Shown here: positions 31,826 through 38,140 of the stretch, piece by piece
Layout: the number at the start of each line of letters is the position of its first letter
How positions within the stretch are numbered: position 1 is the first letter of the stretch
NCBI GenBank assembly: GCA_014859965.1
Contig: JACZKQ010000186.1
Location: 1 to 64,000 of the forward strand
DNA from: Phycisphaerae bacterium
GTDB taxonomy: Bacteria; Planctomycetota; Phycisphaerae; Sedimentisphaerales; Anaerohalosphaeraceae
DNA: 64,000 bases
Reading direction: 5' to 3'
Notes under the pieces: model-generated
What the model was told of the DNA's origin: nothing
What the model saw: the letters and a program-made list of their open reading frames with translations, nothing else
Databases searched by the model: none
Translations under genes and position numbers: made by a program

Positions 31826-32359
31826 ATGGAGACGGACGAAAAGCTCATTGCGGCGGCAAACGCCGGTGACAGCGAGGCGTTTGAGGCGCTGTACCTGCGT
31901 TACCGCGACTGGGTGTACGCTCTGGCGATGCGTTTTACGGGCAACGGGGCGCAGGCCGCCGACGCGGTGCAGGAAACATTTCTCTATCTGCTCAAGAAGT
32001 TCCCCGGGTTCGAGCTGCGCTGCGGCATGAAGAGCTTTCTCTACCCGGCCGTGCGGCACATCTCGATCACGATTACGCGGCAGGGGCGCAGGACGTCCTC
32101 TGACGAGGCCCTGCTGGCCGAATTGCCGGCACCGGACGCCGCCGAGATGGGCGGCTCGCAGGCCGAGCTTGCCGCCGTTCTGGAGACCTTAGCCGCCGAG
32201 CAGCGGCAGGTCGTGCTGATGCGGTTCGTGGACGACATGCCCCTGGCGGACATCGCCGAGGCGCTGGACCTTTCGCTCAATACGGTGAAGTCACGGCTCT
32301 ACCGGGCACTGGAGGCCCTCCGCAGCGACTCACGGACGCGGCGGTACTTCCTTGATTAA
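31826..32359 (+). CDS. ECF-type RNA polymerase sigma factor
   Basis: A 177-residue sigma-70 family factor with regions 2 and 4 only. Region 2 is at FEALYLRYRDWVYALAMRFT and DAVQETFLYLLKKF. Region 4 is at LAAEQRQVVLMRFVDDMPLA and DIAEALDLSLNTVKSRLYRA, a clear helix-turn-helix. It would direct RNA polymerase to a specific promoter set when released from a partner. The next gene encodes a single-pass membrane protein in the position of an anti-sigma factor. The start METDEK was chosen because the coding signal begins there; its ribosome site is weak. Confidence 0.9.
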   Translation: METDEKLIAAANAGDSEAFEALYLRYRDWVYALAMRFTGNGAQAADAVQETFLYLLKKFPGFELRCGMKSFLYPAVRHISITITRQGRRTSSDEALLAELPAPDAAEMGGSQAELAAVLETLAAEQRQVVLMRFVDDMPLADIAEALDLSLNTVKSRLYRALEALRSDSRTRRYFLD

Positions 32360-32417
32360 CACGCGCCACGGCGATCCTGGCCGCGGGGCAGAGGGCATTG
32401 TGAGGTGCTTGGACCAT

Positions 32418-32432: not shown

Positions 32433-32496
32433 CATTTTTTTTTGGATTGCTGAAACTTTTTGCCGCCCATGCGCGCTTAATCCAGCGGAGTACGAC

Positions 32497-32961
32497 ATGA
32501 ACAAAGACAATGAACAACTTGATGCATTAGAAAACAAGGTCGCCAAAGCCCTCGGCGAGGACCTCAAGGCACTGTTTTCGCCTGCCGGTCGGACGCCGGA
32601 CGAGGTGGACCGGGCGGTACTGGACGCAACGCGGAAGCGGCTGGTGCGGCCGCGGCGGCATCGCTGGCGACTGGTCCGCGCCGGTGCGGCGGCGATGGCG
32701 GCGGTGGTGCTGCTGGCGGTGGTCCTCAATGTAACGCGGGACCATGTTGGCCGCATGCATCCGGCGGCGACGGCAACGGCGCCGGCCGACATCGATCATA
32801 ACGGGCGCATCGACATCCTGGATGCCTACAAACTGGCCCGGCGGCTGGAAGGGCCCGGCGCACTTGAGGCGCGCTGGGACCTGAACGCCGACGGACAAGT
32901 GGACCGGGCGGACGTCGACCTGGTGGCGTTTGCGGCCGTTCGGCTGGACGGGGGGGCCTGA
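32497..32961 (+). CDS. Membrane protein with extracytoplasmic dockerin (possible anti-sigma)
   Basis: A 154-residue single-pass protein. Residues 1 to 58 are cytoplasmic and charged (VAKALGEDLKALFSPAGR, VDRAVLDATRKRLVRPRR). Residues 60 to 79 span the membrane (VRAGAAAMAAVVLLAVVLNV). Outside the membrane is a dockerin with two complete calcium loops, DIDHNGRIDILD at 98 to 109 and DLNADGQVDRAD at 128 to 139. GGAG six bases before the ATG fixes the start. Its place after an ECF sigma gene and its topology suggest an anti-sigma factor, but no zinc-binding anti-sigma motif is present, so that is inference. The next gene encodes a cohesin-like protein, the natural partner of a dockerin. Confidence 0.85.
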   Translation: MNKDNEQLDALENKVAKALGEDLKALFSPAGRTPDEVDRAVLDATRKRLVRPRRHRWRLVRAGAAAMAAVVLLAVVLNVTRDHVGRMHPAATATAPADIDHNGRIDILDAYKLARRLEGPGALEARWDLNADGQVDRADVDLVAFAAVRLDGGA

Positions 32962-32963
32962 CG

Positions 32964-33455
32964 ATGAGGTACGCGATTCTGGCGGCAGTATTAAGCTTGG
33001 CGACATTTACCGCGGTGCGCGGCTACGAGACGCGGCCCGAGGCGGACCCAGCCTGCAAAACAAGCTTCGAAACAGCGGACAGCGATGACGCGGCCGTGCG
33101 CTTCGTGCCCCTGCACGTGTTCATCGATTCGGGCGAGGCGCCGCTTGCCGCCTGGCAGTTCGAATTGAATGCCACATCCGACGTGAAGATCGTCGGCGTC
33201 GAAAACGGCGAGCACGAGGCATTCGCCGAGCCTGCCTACTACGATCCCGCCGCCTTGATGAACAACCGCATCATCATCGCCGCCTTCAGCACGGCCGACG
33301 CGTTGCCGACAGGCAGGACCCGCGTCGCGACGATCCACCTGCAAATCACCGGCGACGCCGATCCGGACTATGAACTCATCCTGACCGTCGCCGGCGCTCG
33401 CGACGGCAGCGAAATTCCCGCAACCATCACAAGTCTTGTTGGAGAGGAGCAATGA
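32964..33455 (+). CDS. Secreted cohesin-like domain protein
   Basis: A 163-residue exported protein. Residues 1 to 20 form a signal peptide (ILAAVLSLATFTAVRGY). Residues 43 to 155 look like a cohesin-type beta sandwich: VPLHVFIDSGEAPLAAWQFE, then IVGVENGEHEAF, AYYDPAALMNNRIIIAAFST, and LPTGRTRVATIHLQITGD. In planctomycetes this layout (strand, GG/PLAAWQF, FAEPAYYDPA, TRVATI) is the cohesin-like fold. It begins two bases after the dockerin gene ends, so binding between the two products outside the membrane is a reasonable hypothesis. The fold assignment is by eye and needs structure prediction. Confidence 0.72.
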   Translation: MRYAILAAVLSLATFTAVRGYETRPEADPACKTSFETADSDDAAVRFVPLHVFIDSGEAPLAAWQFELNATSDVKIVGVENGEHEAFAEPAYYDPAALMNNRIIIAAFSTADALPTGRTRVATIHLQITGDADPDYELILTVAGARDGSEIPATITSLVGEEQ

Positions 33456-33958
33456 TGAAGGCGACTGCCTCCCTGATGATCGCAACGGTGTGTCTTTCGG
33501 TATGGCTGACGGGCTGCTCATCGATGGACGCCTATTACAAGGCGTCCGAAAGCCGCAACGCCCGAACGCAGAAGCAATTGAGCAGGACCGTCGACCTATC
33601 GAAACTGGAGGAAGATACCACCTTCGAGGAGGCGATGGAACTTTTCAGGAACTCGGTAGACCCACCGCTCAAAATGGTCGTTCTTTGGAAAGAAATTTCC
33701 GAGAACGCCTTCATCGAAAAAAACACGGCAGTCGGTTTTTCCGGTGAAGGACTCTCGTCTGTACCGCTTCGCACCGGCTTGAAGATTGTCATTGAGGCGA
33801 TCGGGGGCGGGGGAGGCCTTGCGCAACTCGGTTACGTTGTCTATGACGGCGTGGTCCTGGTTGCTTCCAAGGACCATTTATTCTCTTATATGGAGCCTTC
33901 AGAAGAAGAAGGTGATGCTTTCAACGTGCTGGGCAGTTCCGACGAGCCCTGGAAATAA
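33452..33958 (+). CDS. STN-like lipoprotein
   Basis: A 168-residue lipoprotein with lipobox LTGCSS (Cys22). The mature part carries a small alpha-beta domain: LEEDTTFEEAMELFRNSVDP, then LKMVVLWKEISENAFI, VPLRTGLKIVIEAIGG, and LGYVVYDGVVLVASKDHL. This resembles the STN or secretin N-type domains that planctomycetes place in many exported proteins. The start codon overlaps the stop of the cohesin-like gene (ATGA), or uses the next ATG. The role is unknown; it may be an assembly or docking subunit in the same envelope structure as its neighbours. Confidence 0.75.
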   Translation: MMKATASLMIATVCLSVWLTGCSSMDAYYKASESRNARTQKQLSRTVDLSKLEEDTTFEEAMELFRNSVDPPLKMVVLWKEISENAFIEKNTAVGFSGEGLSSVPLRTGLKIVIEAIGGGGGLAQLGYVVYDGVVLVASKDHLFSYMEPSEEEGDAFNVLGSSDEPWK

Positions 33959-33984
33959 TTACCGTTGCATAAGGGAGACCCAAG

Positions 33985-36228
33985 TTGAAGACCGGGAGAT
34001 ATTCGATCACTGTTTCAGTCGGCGTTGTTTGTGTTGTATTTGCTGCGGTTCTGGTTGGTTGCTCGTCGCGCCAAACCGTCAAGCGGAGTGACCCTGCCGT
34101 GGCGAGCGACTGGACCGCCGCGACTGCGGCTGAACCGCACCAGCGCATCGATCCGCGGACCACAGGCGACTACGGCGGCGGTATGATGGGGGGCTATGGC
34201 GGCAGCTACAGCGGTTTCGGCACGTTACAGCGTGAGGATCGACGCATTCCCCTGCTTGGCGACGTTCCCGTAGTGGGCGGACTTTTTAGAACGGAACGAG
34301 TCGATTCGAGCGCGGGGGAGGACGTTTACATTTCGGCCGATGAGGTGTGGGTGATTGTGCGGCCGCAGGGGCCGATTATTCGCGATGACAATACGCCGGG
34401 GTGCGGGGCGATGCGGGTGCGGCCGCCGCGCCAGACGAGGGAGATTGAGCTGCCGCTCAAGCACACGGATGTCAAGGCGGACGTCTGCGGCTATATCGCT
34501 ACAGTGAACGTAACACAGCAGTTTCATAATCCGTACGACGAGAAGATCGAGGCGGTGTACGTCTTTCCGCTGCCGGAGAATGCGGCGGTCAACGATTTTG
34601 TCATGACGATCGGCAAGCGGACAATCCGCGGCATCATCCGCGAGCGCGAGGAGGCCGAACGGGTCTATAAGGCCGCCCGCAGCCAGGGCTACACGGCGTC
34701 GCTGCTGACGCAGGAGCGGCCGAACATCTTCACGCAGAAGGTCGCCAATATCGAGCCGTGCAAGGACATCGACGTGACAATCCGCTATTTCAACACGCTG
34801 GCCTACGTGGACGGCTGGTACGAGTTCGTCTTCCCGATGGTCGTCGGGCCGCGGTTCAACCCTGCCGGATCCAAAGACGGTATCGGCGCCGTCACCCGCG
34901 GCGGCAGGGGCATATCCAGGCAGGACACCGAGGTCCAGTACCTCCGCCCCGGCGAACGGAGCGGCCATGATATTTCGCTCAGCGTGGAGCTTGACGCCGG
35001 AGTCGAGATCGAGGAACTGCTCAGCCCGAGCCACGTCATCAGCAAGAAAATGCTCTCGCACGGGCGGGCCGAGGCGGCGCTCAGCGACCGCGACGACCTG
35101 CCCAACAAAGACTTCGTCCTGCGATATCGCGTCGCGGGCGACAAGCTCAAATCGGCGATGGTGACCCACACCGATAAACGCGGCGGCTTCTTCTCGCTGA
35201 TGCTCTACCCGCCGGCGCGGCTGGAGCATCTGAAGCGGTCGCCGATGGAAATGATCTTCGTGCTGGACTGTTCCGGCAGCATGTCAGGCAAGCCGCTCGC
35301 CCAGGCCAAAGACGCCATTCGCCGCGCCTTGAAGAAGTTGGGGCCGGATGACACATTTCAGGTGATCCGCTTCTCCAGCAACGCCTCGCAGCTCGGCCGC
35401 GACCCTCTGCCCGCCACCGAGAAGAACATCCGCAAAGGACTCGATTACGTCGATTCGCTGCGCAGCGGCGGCGGTACGATGATGATTGAGGGGATCAAAG
35501 CGGCGCTGGATTTCAAACACGACCCGCGACGGTTTCGCCTGGTGTCGTTCATGACCGACGGCTACATCGGAAACGAGGCGGACATATTGGCCGCGATACA
35601 TGAGAAACTGGGCGACAGCCGCATCTTCAGCTTCGGCGTGGGCTCGTCAGTGAACCGCTACCTCCTGGACCGCATGGCGGCGATGGGCAAAGGGGCGGTG
35701 GCCTATATCGGCCCGGACGACTCCGCGGGCGAGGTCGTGGATTTGTTCTATGAGCGCATTAGTCACCCGGCCCTCACCGATGTCGAGATTGACTGGGGCC
35801 GGATGGAGGTTGAAGACGTCTACCCACGGCAAATTCCGGACCTGTTCGTGGGTCGGCCGGTGATCGTCACAGGGCGTTTCACGGGGCGAGCCGACGGTGA
35901 CGTGCGCATTCGCGGCCGCATCGACGGCCGGCGCTGCACCATCGACGTACCCGCCCGCACCGACCGCACCGGCCGAAACGACGGTATCGCCTGCGTCTGG
36001 GCCCGCAAGAAGATCGAGGAACTGTCCAACTGGGCGACGTGGAGCAGCAACCCTTCGCTTGATCGGCAGATCACCGCCACCGCGCTGGAGTACGGCCTCA
36101 TGTCGGCCTACACGGCATTCGTCGCGGTGGATTCCTCAAGAGTCACAAAAGGAGACCACGGCGTGACAGTAACAGTCCCCGTGCCCGTCCCGGACGGCGT
36201 ACGCTACGAAACAACCGTTCAAAACTAA
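33985..36228 (+). CDS. VIT and vWA domain lipoprotein with secretin-like motif
   Basis: A 747-residue exported lipoprotein (lipobox LVGC, Cys26). After a Gly/Tyr-rich linker (residues 61 to 78) comes RRIPLLGDVPVVGGLFRTE, a motif normally found near the end of secretin channel domains. Residues about 150 to 275 form a VIT domain (DVCGYIATVNVTQQFHNPYD, YVFPLPENAAVNDF). Residues 421 to 600 form a von Willebrand A domain whose metal site is DCSGSMSG, with Asp428, Ser430 and Ser432. VIT-vWA proteins usually mediate protein binding at the cell surface. TTG is the start, with GGGAG seven bases upstream. It ends the cluster led by the ECF sigma factor. Confidence 0.87.
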   Translation: MKTGRYSITVSVGVVCVVFAAVLVGCSSRQTVKRSDPAVASDWTAATAAEPHQRIDPRTTGDYGGGMMGGYGGSYSGFGTLQREDRRIPLLGDVPVVGGLFRTERVDSSAGEDVYISADEVWVIVRPQGPIIRDDNTPGCGAMRVRPPRQTREIELPLKHTDVKADVCGYIATVNVTQQFHNPYDEKIEAVYVFPLPENAAVNDFVMTIGKRTIRGIIREREEAERVYKAARSQGYTASLLTQERPNIFTQKVANIEPCKDIDVTIRYFNTLAYVDGWYEFVFPMVVGPRFNPAGSKDGIGAVTRGGRGISRQDTEVQYLRPGERSGHDISLSVELDAGVEIEELLSPSHVISKKMLSHGRAEAALSDRDDLPNKDFVLRYRVAGDKLKSAMVTHTDKRGGFFSLMLYPPARLEHLKRSPMEMIFVLDCSGSMSGKPLAQAKDAIRRALKKLGPDDTFQVIRFSSNASQLGRDPLPATEKNIRKGLDYVDSLRSGGGTMMIEGIKAALDFKHDPRRFRLVSFMTDGYIGNEADILAAIHEKLGDSRIFSFGVGSSVNRYLLDRMAAMGKGAVAYIGPDDSAGEVVDLFYERISHPALTDVEIDWGRMEVEDVYPRQIPDLFVGRPVIVTGRFTGRADGDVRIRGRIDGRRCTIDVPARTDRTGRNDGIACVWARKKIEELSNWATWSSNPSLDRQITATALEYGLMSAYTAFVAVDSSRVTKGDHGVTVTVPVPVPDGVRYETTVQN

Positions 36229-36259: not shown

Positions 36260-37282
36260 CTACCCCGGCGTTTCGTCGATGGGCACGAGTTTGAAGACGG
36301 CCTCGCGGGGGGCGCCGGTGAGTTCGATTTCACCCTTCCGCACGAAATCCGTGGGAAAGTTGTAGATAATGGGCCGGTGGACGTTCTCCCGGTTTTCGTC
36401 GCCGTCGCGGACCTCAATCATGATGAGATACGGCATCTTTTCGTAGGCGTTATACGCGGCGTCCGAGGCCTTGTACTGCACGGTGCGAAGGTCGTTTTCA
36501 TTCGTCAGTTCCAGGTTGTACTTGCCCTGGAGGTTCTTGCTGTAGATGATCCCCAGCTTCAGCAGGGGGCTTGTCACGCGGTCCTTGAGCGGACTCTCCG
36601 TGCTGGGCAGCTTGATGGCGACCGGTGTAGTAAACCACCTTCTGCGGCCCGGCTGAAGCTCGATGAAGGGCCGTTCGGACACGGGCTCCCGCCGGGCCTT
36701 GTCGATCATCGCCGCCGTGAGAATCACGTTGGCCTTGAGGCTGTCGCCCGACCAGTGCTCATACCCGTGCATCTGTATCGTGGACGGCTCGATCAGTTCT
36801 GCCCGCAGCGGCTCCTTGTTTTCATCCAGCACCTGCACGTTGAACCACTTCTGTGTGAGCTGGTCGACTTTCACATTAATGGTCGCCGGCTCGCAGTGCT
36901 CGACGGAGACCGCCAGGTTCTTGAGCTTGTCGCTTTCATTGAGAAACGTCAGCAGGTCCAGCGGATACCGACCCGGCGCGGAATGGTTTTCCAATTCAAC
37001 GTCATAGAAGAACTCCAGGCGCTCCTTCTGCGGATCGGTGTCGTCGGCCCGCAGCCGCTTCTTCAGTTCGTTCATCTGCCCCGGCGAACCCTTGAGCGTC
37101 AACTGGATGTTAAGGGATGCGGGCTGCTCCTCGAAGCTGACGAACAGATCAGATCGCGTCGCCGGCGAAATGCTCAGCGTGCCCGTGGCGGGCATCGTTT
37201 CTTCCAGGGCCAGATACGCCCACGCCCAGATCAACCCCGTCAGGGCGACAACGGCACTGAGTTTCTTCAACATGTCAACCAT
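36260..37282 (-). CDS. YbbR-like domain protein (CdaR-like)
   Basis: A 340-residue protein with one N-terminal transmembrane helix (LSAVVALTGLIWAWAYLAL) and a long extracytoplasmic beta-rich part. Segments such as FVSFEEQPASLNIQLTLKG, INVKVDQLTQKWFNVQV and FPTDFVRKGEIELTGAP fit YbbR-type repeats, though divergent. It starts 12 bases after the cdaA stop. In Firmicutes the cdaA neighbour CdaR is a YbbR protein that controls the cyclase, so the same role is likely here. ATG codons one and four are both possible starts. Confidence 0.82.
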   Translation of the reverse strand: MVDMLKKLSAVVALTGLIWAWAYLALEETMPATGTLSISPATRSDLFVSFEEQPASLNIQLTLKGSPGQMNELKKRLRADDTDPQKERLEFFYDVELENHSAPGRYPLDLLTFLNESDKLKNLAVSVEHCEPATINVKVDQLTQKWFNVQVLDENKEPLRAELIEPSTIQMHGYEHWSGDSLKANVILTAAMIDKARREPVSERPFIELQPGRRRWFTTPVAIKLPSTESPLKDRVTSPLLKLGIIYSKNLQGKYNLELTNENDLRTVQYKASDAAYNAYEKMPYLIMIEVRDGDENRENVHRPIIYNFPTDFVRKGEIELTGAPREAVFKLVPIDETPG

Positions 37283-37294
37283 GAGGTGAGGGTC

Positions 37295-38140
37295 CTATTC
37301 TTTGCCTTCGCGCGACTGCACGGCTTCCTTCATACGTTCGATCAGGGGGGTCGTTTCCACGACGGCGGTGGTCAACTGTCTCCGCAACTGGGCTTCCGAA
37401 ACATTCCGGATGAGATTGCCGTTGACCGCGAGCGAGACGATGCCGGTTTCCTCGCTGACGATGATCACGGTGGCGTCGGAGCTGCCGGTGACGCCGATGG
37501 CCGCACGGTGCCGGGAGCCGAGCTGTCGGCCCTGAAAGCTGTCGCCTTCGGCCAGCGGCAGTTGAACGCGCCCGGCGACAATCCGGTCGCCCTGGATGAC
37601 GACCGCCATATCGTGCAGCGCCGAGCCCGGATAAAAAATAGTCTTCAAAAGTTCGGCGGTCACTTTGGCGTCGATCCGCACACCGGTCTCGATGAATTCG
37701 GCAAGCCCGACCTGCTGCTCGATAACAATAATGGCGCCCGTCCGCGTGGCGGCCAGTTGGGTCACCGCGTTGATGATTTCCTCGACGCTCCGCGTGAGCT
37801 GCTGAGGCGAGCTCGACAGAAAGCCGGCCTGCCCGATACGGATCAGAGCACGGCGCACCTCGGGCTGGAACGCGGCGACAGCGACAATGAGAATGGCCAG
37901 CAAAAAGCCCTTGTAAAGGTAGGCGATACGGATGAGCCCGAACTGCTCGACGACGAGATTGAGGATGAGCGAACCGACGATCAGGATAAAAATCACGCCC
38001 CGGAACAGACGTTCGCCGCGGGTGCCTTCGAGAAAGCTGATGATGGTGTAAACAAATATCCCGATGAGAACCAGTTCAAGACCGACAATGAGACGCTCGT
38101 GCAGGCTTATTCGGTATAGATACTCAACGATTGCGTCCAA
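37295..38140 (-). CDS. cdaA: Diadenylate cyclase CdaA
   Basis: Makes the second messenger c-di-AMP from two ATP. The protein has 281 residues with three N-terminal membrane helices and a cytoplasmic DAC domain. The metal and nucleotide motif reads FYPGSALHDMAVVIQ, where the usual DGA is DMA. The second motif LGSRHRAAIG (RHR) is intact, as is EETGIVSLAVNG. TTG serves as start, with GGGAGG upstream. A YbbR-like gene follows closely and a small lipoprotein gene precedes it, an arrangement consistent with a c-di-AMP operon governing envelope or osmotic balance. Confidence 0.92.
   Translation of the reverse strand: MDAIVEYLYRISLHERLIVGLELVLIGIFVYTIISFLEGTRGERLFRGVIFILIVGSLILNLVVEQFGLIRIAYLYKGFLLAILIVAVAAFQPEVRRALIRIGQAGFLSSSPQQLTRSVEEIINAVTQLAATRTGAIIVIEQQVGLAEFIETGVRIDAKVTAELLKTIFYPGSALHDMAVVIQGDRIVAGRVQLPLAEGDSFQGRQLGSRHRAAIGVTGSSDATVIIVSEETGIVSLAVNGNLIRNVSEAQLRRQLTTAVVETTPLIERMKEAVQSREGKE

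Follow-up and report, generated by a model that had tools for sequence, protein, structure and literature searches.

A stretch of 64,000 nt from contig JACZKQ010000186.1 of a Phycisphaerae bacterium (assembly GCA_014859965.1), referred to here as the window, carries a row of genes in which an extracytoplasmic function (ECF) sigma factor is followed by a membrane protein with a dockerin domain (dock), a cohesin-fold protein (coh), a small lipoprotein and a lipoprotein with VIT and vWA domains. This row was investigated as a candidate sigma/anti-sigma module. All positions are those of the whole window, and the sigma gene lies outside the range 32497–36228 on which the initial annotation was centred. 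The features of the locus are as follows.

31826..32359, + strand: ECF sigma factor gene, product of 177 aa with regions 2 and 4 (Pfam; orthologues lie 5′ of the dockerin gene in most loci)
32451..32480, + strand: ECF-type promoter box, TGAAACTTTT-N13-CGCTTAA (weight matrix and genome pattern search)
32497..32961, + strand: membrane dockerin protein, dock, 154 aa, putative anti-sigma factor (Pfam, alignment A2, homologue model)
32785..32925, + strand: dockerin domain with two calcium loops, DIDHNGRIDILD and DLNADGQVDRAD (location of the Pfam match; loops read off the sequence)
32964..33455, + strand: secreted single-domain cohesin-fold protein, coh, 163 aa with a signal peptide (AlphaFold2 fold comparison)
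33452..33958, + strand: small lipoprotein, STN-like and accessory, 168 aa (lipobox LTGC; weak alignment)
33985..36228, + strand: VIT + vWA lipoprotein, 747 aa, TTG start (Pfam; lipobox LVGC; the usual fourth gene)

The product of 31826–32359 is an ECF sigma factor, with matches to Sigma70_r2 (5.1e-12, 45.8 bits) and Sigma70_r4_2 (3.7e-17, 62.2 bits) that both exceed the Pfam cut-off, and the remaining genes do lie downstream of an ECF sigma gene as the initial annotation had it. The close packing that it described was also found: coh starts at 32964, two bases past the dock stop codon, and coh and the small lipoprotein gene share 4 bases. Export of the products, which had likewise been proposed, agrees by inspection with the signal peptide of the cohesin-like protein and the lipoboxes LTGC (small lipoprotein) and LVGC (VIT/vWA). 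Homologues of dock align from position 32497 (A2), and the start of the longer alternative open reading frame (ORF), at 32416, lies 5′ of the promoter box at 32451–32480; 32497 was therefore taken as the correct start.

Domains and folds of the encoded proteins

The dock protein is laid out as cytoplasmic helices (residues ~1–58), a transmembrane (TM) segment (~60–79) and a dockerin (~97–150), and the model of the homologue at locus L116 shows helices and a long TM helix. A strongly basic stretch, RKRLVRPRRHRWRLVR, directly precedes the single hydrophobic segment; by the positive-inside rule, the N-terminus is therefore predicted to be cytoplasmic and the dockerin to lie outside. The dockerin is of type I, matching Dockerin_1 at 2.5e-7 (31.2 bits, cut-off 22.9), which together with the single TM bears out the claim of a dockerin on a membrane-spanning protein. 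Both 12-residue calcium loops are complete in the window dockerin. When a strict loop pattern was applied to the homologues, two calcium loops were found in 77 of 116, one in 33 and none in six, and the dockerin helices ILDAF-x-LAR and VDAVA-x-AAV were usually kept. A binding surface maintained with or without calcium would fit this pattern of loops and helices.

The proposed tie between dock and sigma regulation gained support from divergent members of the family. In the divergent loci L186 and L190, the product of the gene that separates sigma from cohesin combines a zinc anti-sigma domain, a TM and a C-terminal dockerin in one chain, with zf-HC2 (1.7e-9 and 6.8e-5, respectively) and Dockerin_1 (7.2e-9 and 2.9e-9) all above cut-off, so that homologues at the same locus position belong to the zinc-binding anti-sigma (ZAS) class. 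The H-x3-C-x2-C motif was also present in dock of L083, L154, L157, L162 and L163, most of which continue with the window-like VP-x-E-x-D helix, a TM and a dockerin. The window dock itself shows the features of a membrane anti-sigma factor, namely a gene beside sigma, a basic helix on the N-terminal side, one TM and an extracytoplasmic C-terminal domain, and it is probably the inhibitor of the ECF sigma factor.

The cohesin-like window protein gave no Pfam match, and searching PDB sequences against the profile of its family gave no match up to E 5; cohesins became visible by fold comparison only. AlphaFold2, run on the 76-row alignment A5, modelled the product with a mean predicted local distance difference test score (pLDDT) of 90.4. 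The best 30 PDB matches in Foldseek were cohesins, with modest E-values (best 7.8e-4), and the best 47 PDB rows of VIA-align were all cohesins (Z 10.6–8.4, root-mean-square deviation 2.5–3.5 over 108–117 residues), the first non-cohesin appearing at Z 7.4. A second model, of a different sequence (L116), ranked cohesins at Z 10.2–7.6 ahead of the first non-cohesin; the Foldseek and VIA comparisons made with the tethered L116 model described below cover its cohesin part only, not the interface. The 32964–33455 product is thus predicted to have the cohesin fold on which the initial annotation had made its proposal depend. Pfam Cohesin was the family most often matched by the homologues (six of 76, best E 0.0043), always below cut-off; the window protein has a cohesin fold but is no PF00963 member by the curated rule, because its sequence stays below the Cohesin cut-off. 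This cohesin-like gene is the only one in its own genome, which holds no Pfam PF00963 match and neither a multi-cohesin scaffold nor the several cohesins expected of a cellulosome or planctosome.

The VIT/vWA product matched VIT (1.4e-36) and VWA_3 (4.8e-17), and its vWA domain has a DCSGS metal site. Its score against TIGR03788, the marine proteobacterial sortase target protein, was 504 bits (cut-off 551.65), and its C-terminus ends in the tail VPVPVPDGVRYETTVQN with no sortase motif or C-terminal TM, which places it outside that family of sortase targets. In most loci the extreme C-terminus (window 36165–36228) keeps P-[DE]-G-V-[RK]-Y-[DE]-T-T-V instead of a sorting signal. A secretin-like motif, IPLLGDVPVVGGLF, lies 5′ of the VIT domain at window 34225–34300 (Pfam Secretin E 0.0018, below cut-off); its equivalent in L049 (2894–5449) is VPLLGDTPLVGNLF. 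The VIT/vWA gene is the usual yet dispensable fourth gene, being missing beside the triad in L186, L188, L189 and L190, and the core of the module is sigma, dockerin anti-sigma and cohesin.

The one member of the originally described row that was not upheld is the small lipoprotein (33452–33958), which had been counted in as an STN-like gene. It had no Pfam match and no STN profile support, and it aligned weakly to the N-terminal domains of the VIT proteins of L017 and L078, of which the latter matches STN at E 0.017 only. As a separate ORF it was found in the window only, most relatives being without it, and two divergent VIT proteins bear a comparable N-terminal domain. The gene is regarded as accessory, and its STN-like character is weakly supported. 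Beyond the VIT/vWA gene, on the − strand, lies an ordinary-looking gene (36260–38140) for a DAC-domain protein (diadenylate cyclase, E 2.3e-38), adjoined by that of an exported protein without Pfam match that is probably a YbbR-like partner.

Conservation of gene order and of the promoter box

Homologues were gathered from relatives, from the whole class Phycisphaerae and from a collection of named genomes, the genome scan being made with the 14-row alignment A4 since the 38 rows of A3 proved too diverse. Of the 78 loci from named genomes, 55 had the complete order sigma–dock–coh–vit, as did 36 of the 45 loci from the class sample; the genomes of the two sets overlap. The genes of complete loci were usually a few bases apart, and most of the remaining loci were cut by a contig end, had sigma in divergent orientation or lacked it upstream. 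The gene order in relatives, which had been set as a check on the initial annotation, is therefore widely recurrent and not due to chance. The module was present in 50 of 397 sampled Phycisphaerae genomes (~13 %) and in 31 of 392 sampled Planctomycetota (8 %), nearly always as one copy per genome, with two partial matches listed for a few genomes.

The hosts were mainly Planctomycetota, with Verrucomicrobiota and a few metagenome-assembled genomes (MAGs) labelled Myxococcota or Proteobacteria. A quick tree of VIT sequences placed the window among Sedimentisphaerales-type sequences, with the Verrucomicrobiota rows branching apart; MAG labels may err, and L139 (labelled Acidobacteria), which lies near the Verrucomicrobiota locus L151, may be contamination. 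L086 and L166 have the appearance of decayed copies: their cohesin-like stretch is truncated and overlaps the sigma frame, and VIT is not alongside.

Gene fusions were informative about topology. A single ORF of L180 holds anti-sigma, TM, intact dockerin and cohesin, and the same fusion, with the dockerin degenerate, occurs in L193 and L088; these fusions link the two modules and locate the cohesin at the external side of the anti-sigma factor. Further apparent fusions (L053, L068, L079, L084 and L087) were dropped as out-of-frame ORF extensions in G+C-rich DNA.

In the window, the promoter box at 32451–32480 reads TGAAACTTTTTGCCGCCCATGCGCGCTTAA and is separated from the dock ATG by 16 bases. 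A 29-base box, TGAACCTTTT-N12-CACTWAA, is common to the Verrucomicrobiota loci, where its position upstream of sigma predicts autoregulation; in most of them the box recurs ahead of dock, at the stop codon of sigma. Two boxes, upstream of sigma and near its stop, were seen in L121, L139, L145, L149, L151 and L148, the second copy of L149 having four mismatches. A weight matrix built from the Verrucomicrobiota loci only was applied to the 68 unique other loci. It found the box in the sigma–dock gap of 49 of them (shuffled sequences: mean 0.7, maximum 3), with almost always identical spacing, and upstream of sigma in two.

In the 5.28-Mb own genome, the pattern TGAAMYTTTYN{14,15}CTTMA had one match, the box at 32451–32480; across 15 genomes, nine sites were the operon's own and three lay elsewhere (reversed control, seven matches). 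The conservation of the box before dock and its being the only match in the own genome make the inhibitor–cohesin–VIT unit itself the main predicted sigma target, so that the link made earlier between sigma and the genes downstream now has an ECF-type promoter ahead of dock–coh–VIT behind it. A gene for DUF4349 was a recurrent neighbour (L018 242–1420, L106 4161–5423, L119 4513–5337, L124 1415–2122 and L188 5971–7188). Where it stands ahead of dock (L018, L119 and L124) or after coh (L188), the box is ahead of the DUF4349 gene, which may be a second output because the box is directly in front of it.

The dockerin–cohesin pair as a putative switch

Contact between the two domains was addressed with a tethered model, made from the L116 dock and coh read through as a tandem (alignment A9, seven paired rows) with one stop codon read as glycine; the tandem is a device for testing contact, and no read-through is claimed. 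The model had a pLDDT of 84, rising above 90 over most of the dockerin and cohesin blocks, and a predicted template modelling score (pTM) of 0.68. By a rough estimate, the pTM would be 0.42 if the cohesin alone were placed and 0.56–0.65 if the dockerin were placed too, which suggests that the score obtained would be hard to reach unless dockerin and cohesin were placed together. When distance matrices from 60 loci were compared by partial correlation (standard deviation ~0.07), values were 0.23 for the N-terminal half of dock with sigma, 0.26 for the dockerin with coh and 0.27 for the dockerin with vit, compared with 0.01 for the dockerin with sigma and −0.01 for the N-terminal half with vit; the two halves of dock thus track different partners.

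The pair also looks private, because genome G134 holds the module's own dockerin as its sole one at E ≤ 0.1, no dockerin was detected at E ≤ 1 in G122, and coh itself is the sole cohesin-like gene in the own genome, where Pfam Cohesin has no match. That genome has 31 Dockerin_1 matches, and dockerins occur in 357 of the 397 sampled Phycisphaerae genomes, in a scan that scored at most about 15 candidates per genome. A 14,875-codon open frame with several dockerin matches inside was also seen in the own genome (G000:C142:140187-140540).

The reading to which we give a probability of roughly 0.6 is that the locus is a self-contained ECF sigma/anti-sigma module in which a private cohesin–dockerin bond serves as the periplasmic switch. 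The single-pass anti-sigma factor (32497–32961) would hold the sigma factor (31826–32359) through its N-terminal cytoplasmic helices, with its C-terminal dockerin outside the inner membrane and the secreted cohesin (32964–33455) as its private partner. Whether the dockerin is bound or free would decide whether sigma is held, much as RseB modulates RseA. Sensing the assembly of a surface complex, the role put forward in the initial annotation, is a candidate function at most. Freed sigma would transcribe its one strong predicted target, from the box at 32451–32480 ahead of dockerin–cohesin–(STN)–VIT, and would thereby replenish inhibitor, cohesin and VIT/vWA in a feedback loop. The VIT/vWA lipoprotein, a putative ligand binder with a metal site, would be the usual output and perhaps a sensor that removes or presents the cohesin. 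In this scheme we infer sigma binding, dockerin–cohesin binding, the signal and its direction, and any proteolytic step.

Several observations weigh against the scheme. The H-x3-C-x2-C motif is not present in the window dock (32497–32961) and the cytoplasmic part of this protein is only short; its sigma binding is for these reasons argued from homology and position, and the absence of the motif kept it from being filed as a ZAS member. Degraded calcium loops in some homologues mean that the canonical mode of dockerin binding may not hold throughout the family. The pTM argument is indirect. The dockerin–vit and coh–vit correlations were as high as that of dockerin and coh, so that the cohesin is not singled out from VIT, and all the partial correlations are inflated by shared history. 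A clear box was missing from about a quarter of the loci. In L100 (2473–5157), L105 (3–593) and L110 (1080–3743), the place upstream of dock usually taken by sigma is occupied by two-component genes, a response regulator being seen in two of these loci and a histidine kinase in two, with the box still directly ahead of dock.

Three other explanations were weighed. The first, which we regard as unlikely, is structural: dock would just anchor the cohesin, and VIT/vWA through it, to the inner membrane, with sigma as a co-located regulator of expression. All well-known dockerin/cohesin cases are indeed assembly modules and VIT/vWA is the most frequent neighbour, but a mere anchor sits poorly with the zinc anti-sigma domain at the N-terminus of homologues, with triads that occur without VIT, and with a cytoplasmic half that correlates with sigma (0.23) and not with vit (−0.01). 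Somewhat more improbable is that the dockerin-tagged exported proteins of the genome compete for its only cohesin, sigma activity then reporting dockerin traffic or assembly of a ‘planctosome’-like structure. The 31 dockerin matches beside a single cohesin-like gene, and the prevalence of dockerins in the class, would suit such a load sensor; however, the module persists in G134 and G122, essentially without other dockerins, and most dockerin-rich genomes do without the module. The least probable is a sensor of envelope spacing, in which the dockerin anti-sigma factor of the inner membrane holds on to a cohesin anchored in the outer membrane and sigma is freed when this bond breaks or is stretched. 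It might be read from the lipobox cohesins of the divergent clade and from L186 and L190, where a long stretch resembling a coiled coil separates the TM from the dockerin, whereas the window and most relatives have a short linker and a plain signal peptide on the cohesin.

A wider version of the switch reading is offered tentatively. The module may represent a class of anti-sigma factors switched by a private cohesin–dockerin bond, and the divergent branch of this class may have an outer-membrane cohesin that the anti-sigma factor reaches by a coiled-coil arm, through which the cell would read envelope spacing or integrity.

Relation to known systems and significance

One close parallel is RpoE–RseA–RseB (rpoE-rseA-rseB-rseC; PMC4336711), which has sigma, single-pass anti-sigma and periplasmic modulator in the same order, a −35-like GAAC element and a target promoter inside its own locus. 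The module differs in that its periplasmic contact is a dockerin–cohesin pair and its fourth gene is VIT/vWA, and neither RseA nor RseB was matched in Pfam scans of the window proteins. Cellulosome clostridia sense biomass through SigI/RsgI (PMC3413522; PMC11557425), a system whose transmembrane anti-sigma factor likewise presents a recognition module outside the cytoplasm and which is also close to cohesin and dockerin biology. RsgI, however, bears carbohydrate-binding or other modules, whereas here the sensor head is a dockerin, the partner a secreted protein and the sigma factor of the ECF type; no RsgI domain was found in the Pfam scan at E ≤ 1. In the lysozyme receptor RsiV–SigV (PMC4183432; PMC5014341), the outer domain of the anti-sigma factor also binds a protein ligand, there foreign lysozyme, while the presumed partner here is encoded in the same operon. 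A FecI–FecR–FecA arrangement was not indicated, with no FecR, TonB-receptor or STN match among the window proteins.

Non-cellulosomal cohesin and dockerin modules have been described in Phycisphaerae as the ‘planctosome’ of freshwater members (PMC6461901), in which large multidomain proteins form a peptidase scaffold and for which a sigma link was not described; the present locus has instead one small cohesin and a membrane dockerin. With TIGR03788 the VIT/vWA protein shares its architecture, differing in its score, in the absence of the sortase motif and C-terminal TM, and in the conserved tail. In the searchable literature, which excludes subscription papers so that a prior description is possible, no paper combines an ECF sigma factor, a dockerin and planctomycetes; none there joined the full name of the VIT domain with a sigma factor.

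On the switch reading, one Phycisphaerae dockerin would gain a concrete and testable job, in signal transduction and not in the building of scaffolds. Small and self-contained, the module is present in many lineages with its own predicted promoter, and the whole circuit could therefore be rebuilt. If the proposed switch is correct, a high-affinity and possibly calcium-dependent joint would be added to the known routes by which signals cross the membrane to sigma factors, and would offer an orthogonal part for synthetic circuits. The pairing of an ECF sigma factor and a membrane dockerin with a dedicated secreted cohesin, in a gene order kept across several phyla, suggests that cells use the plug-and-socket joint of the cellulosome for trans-membrane signalling.

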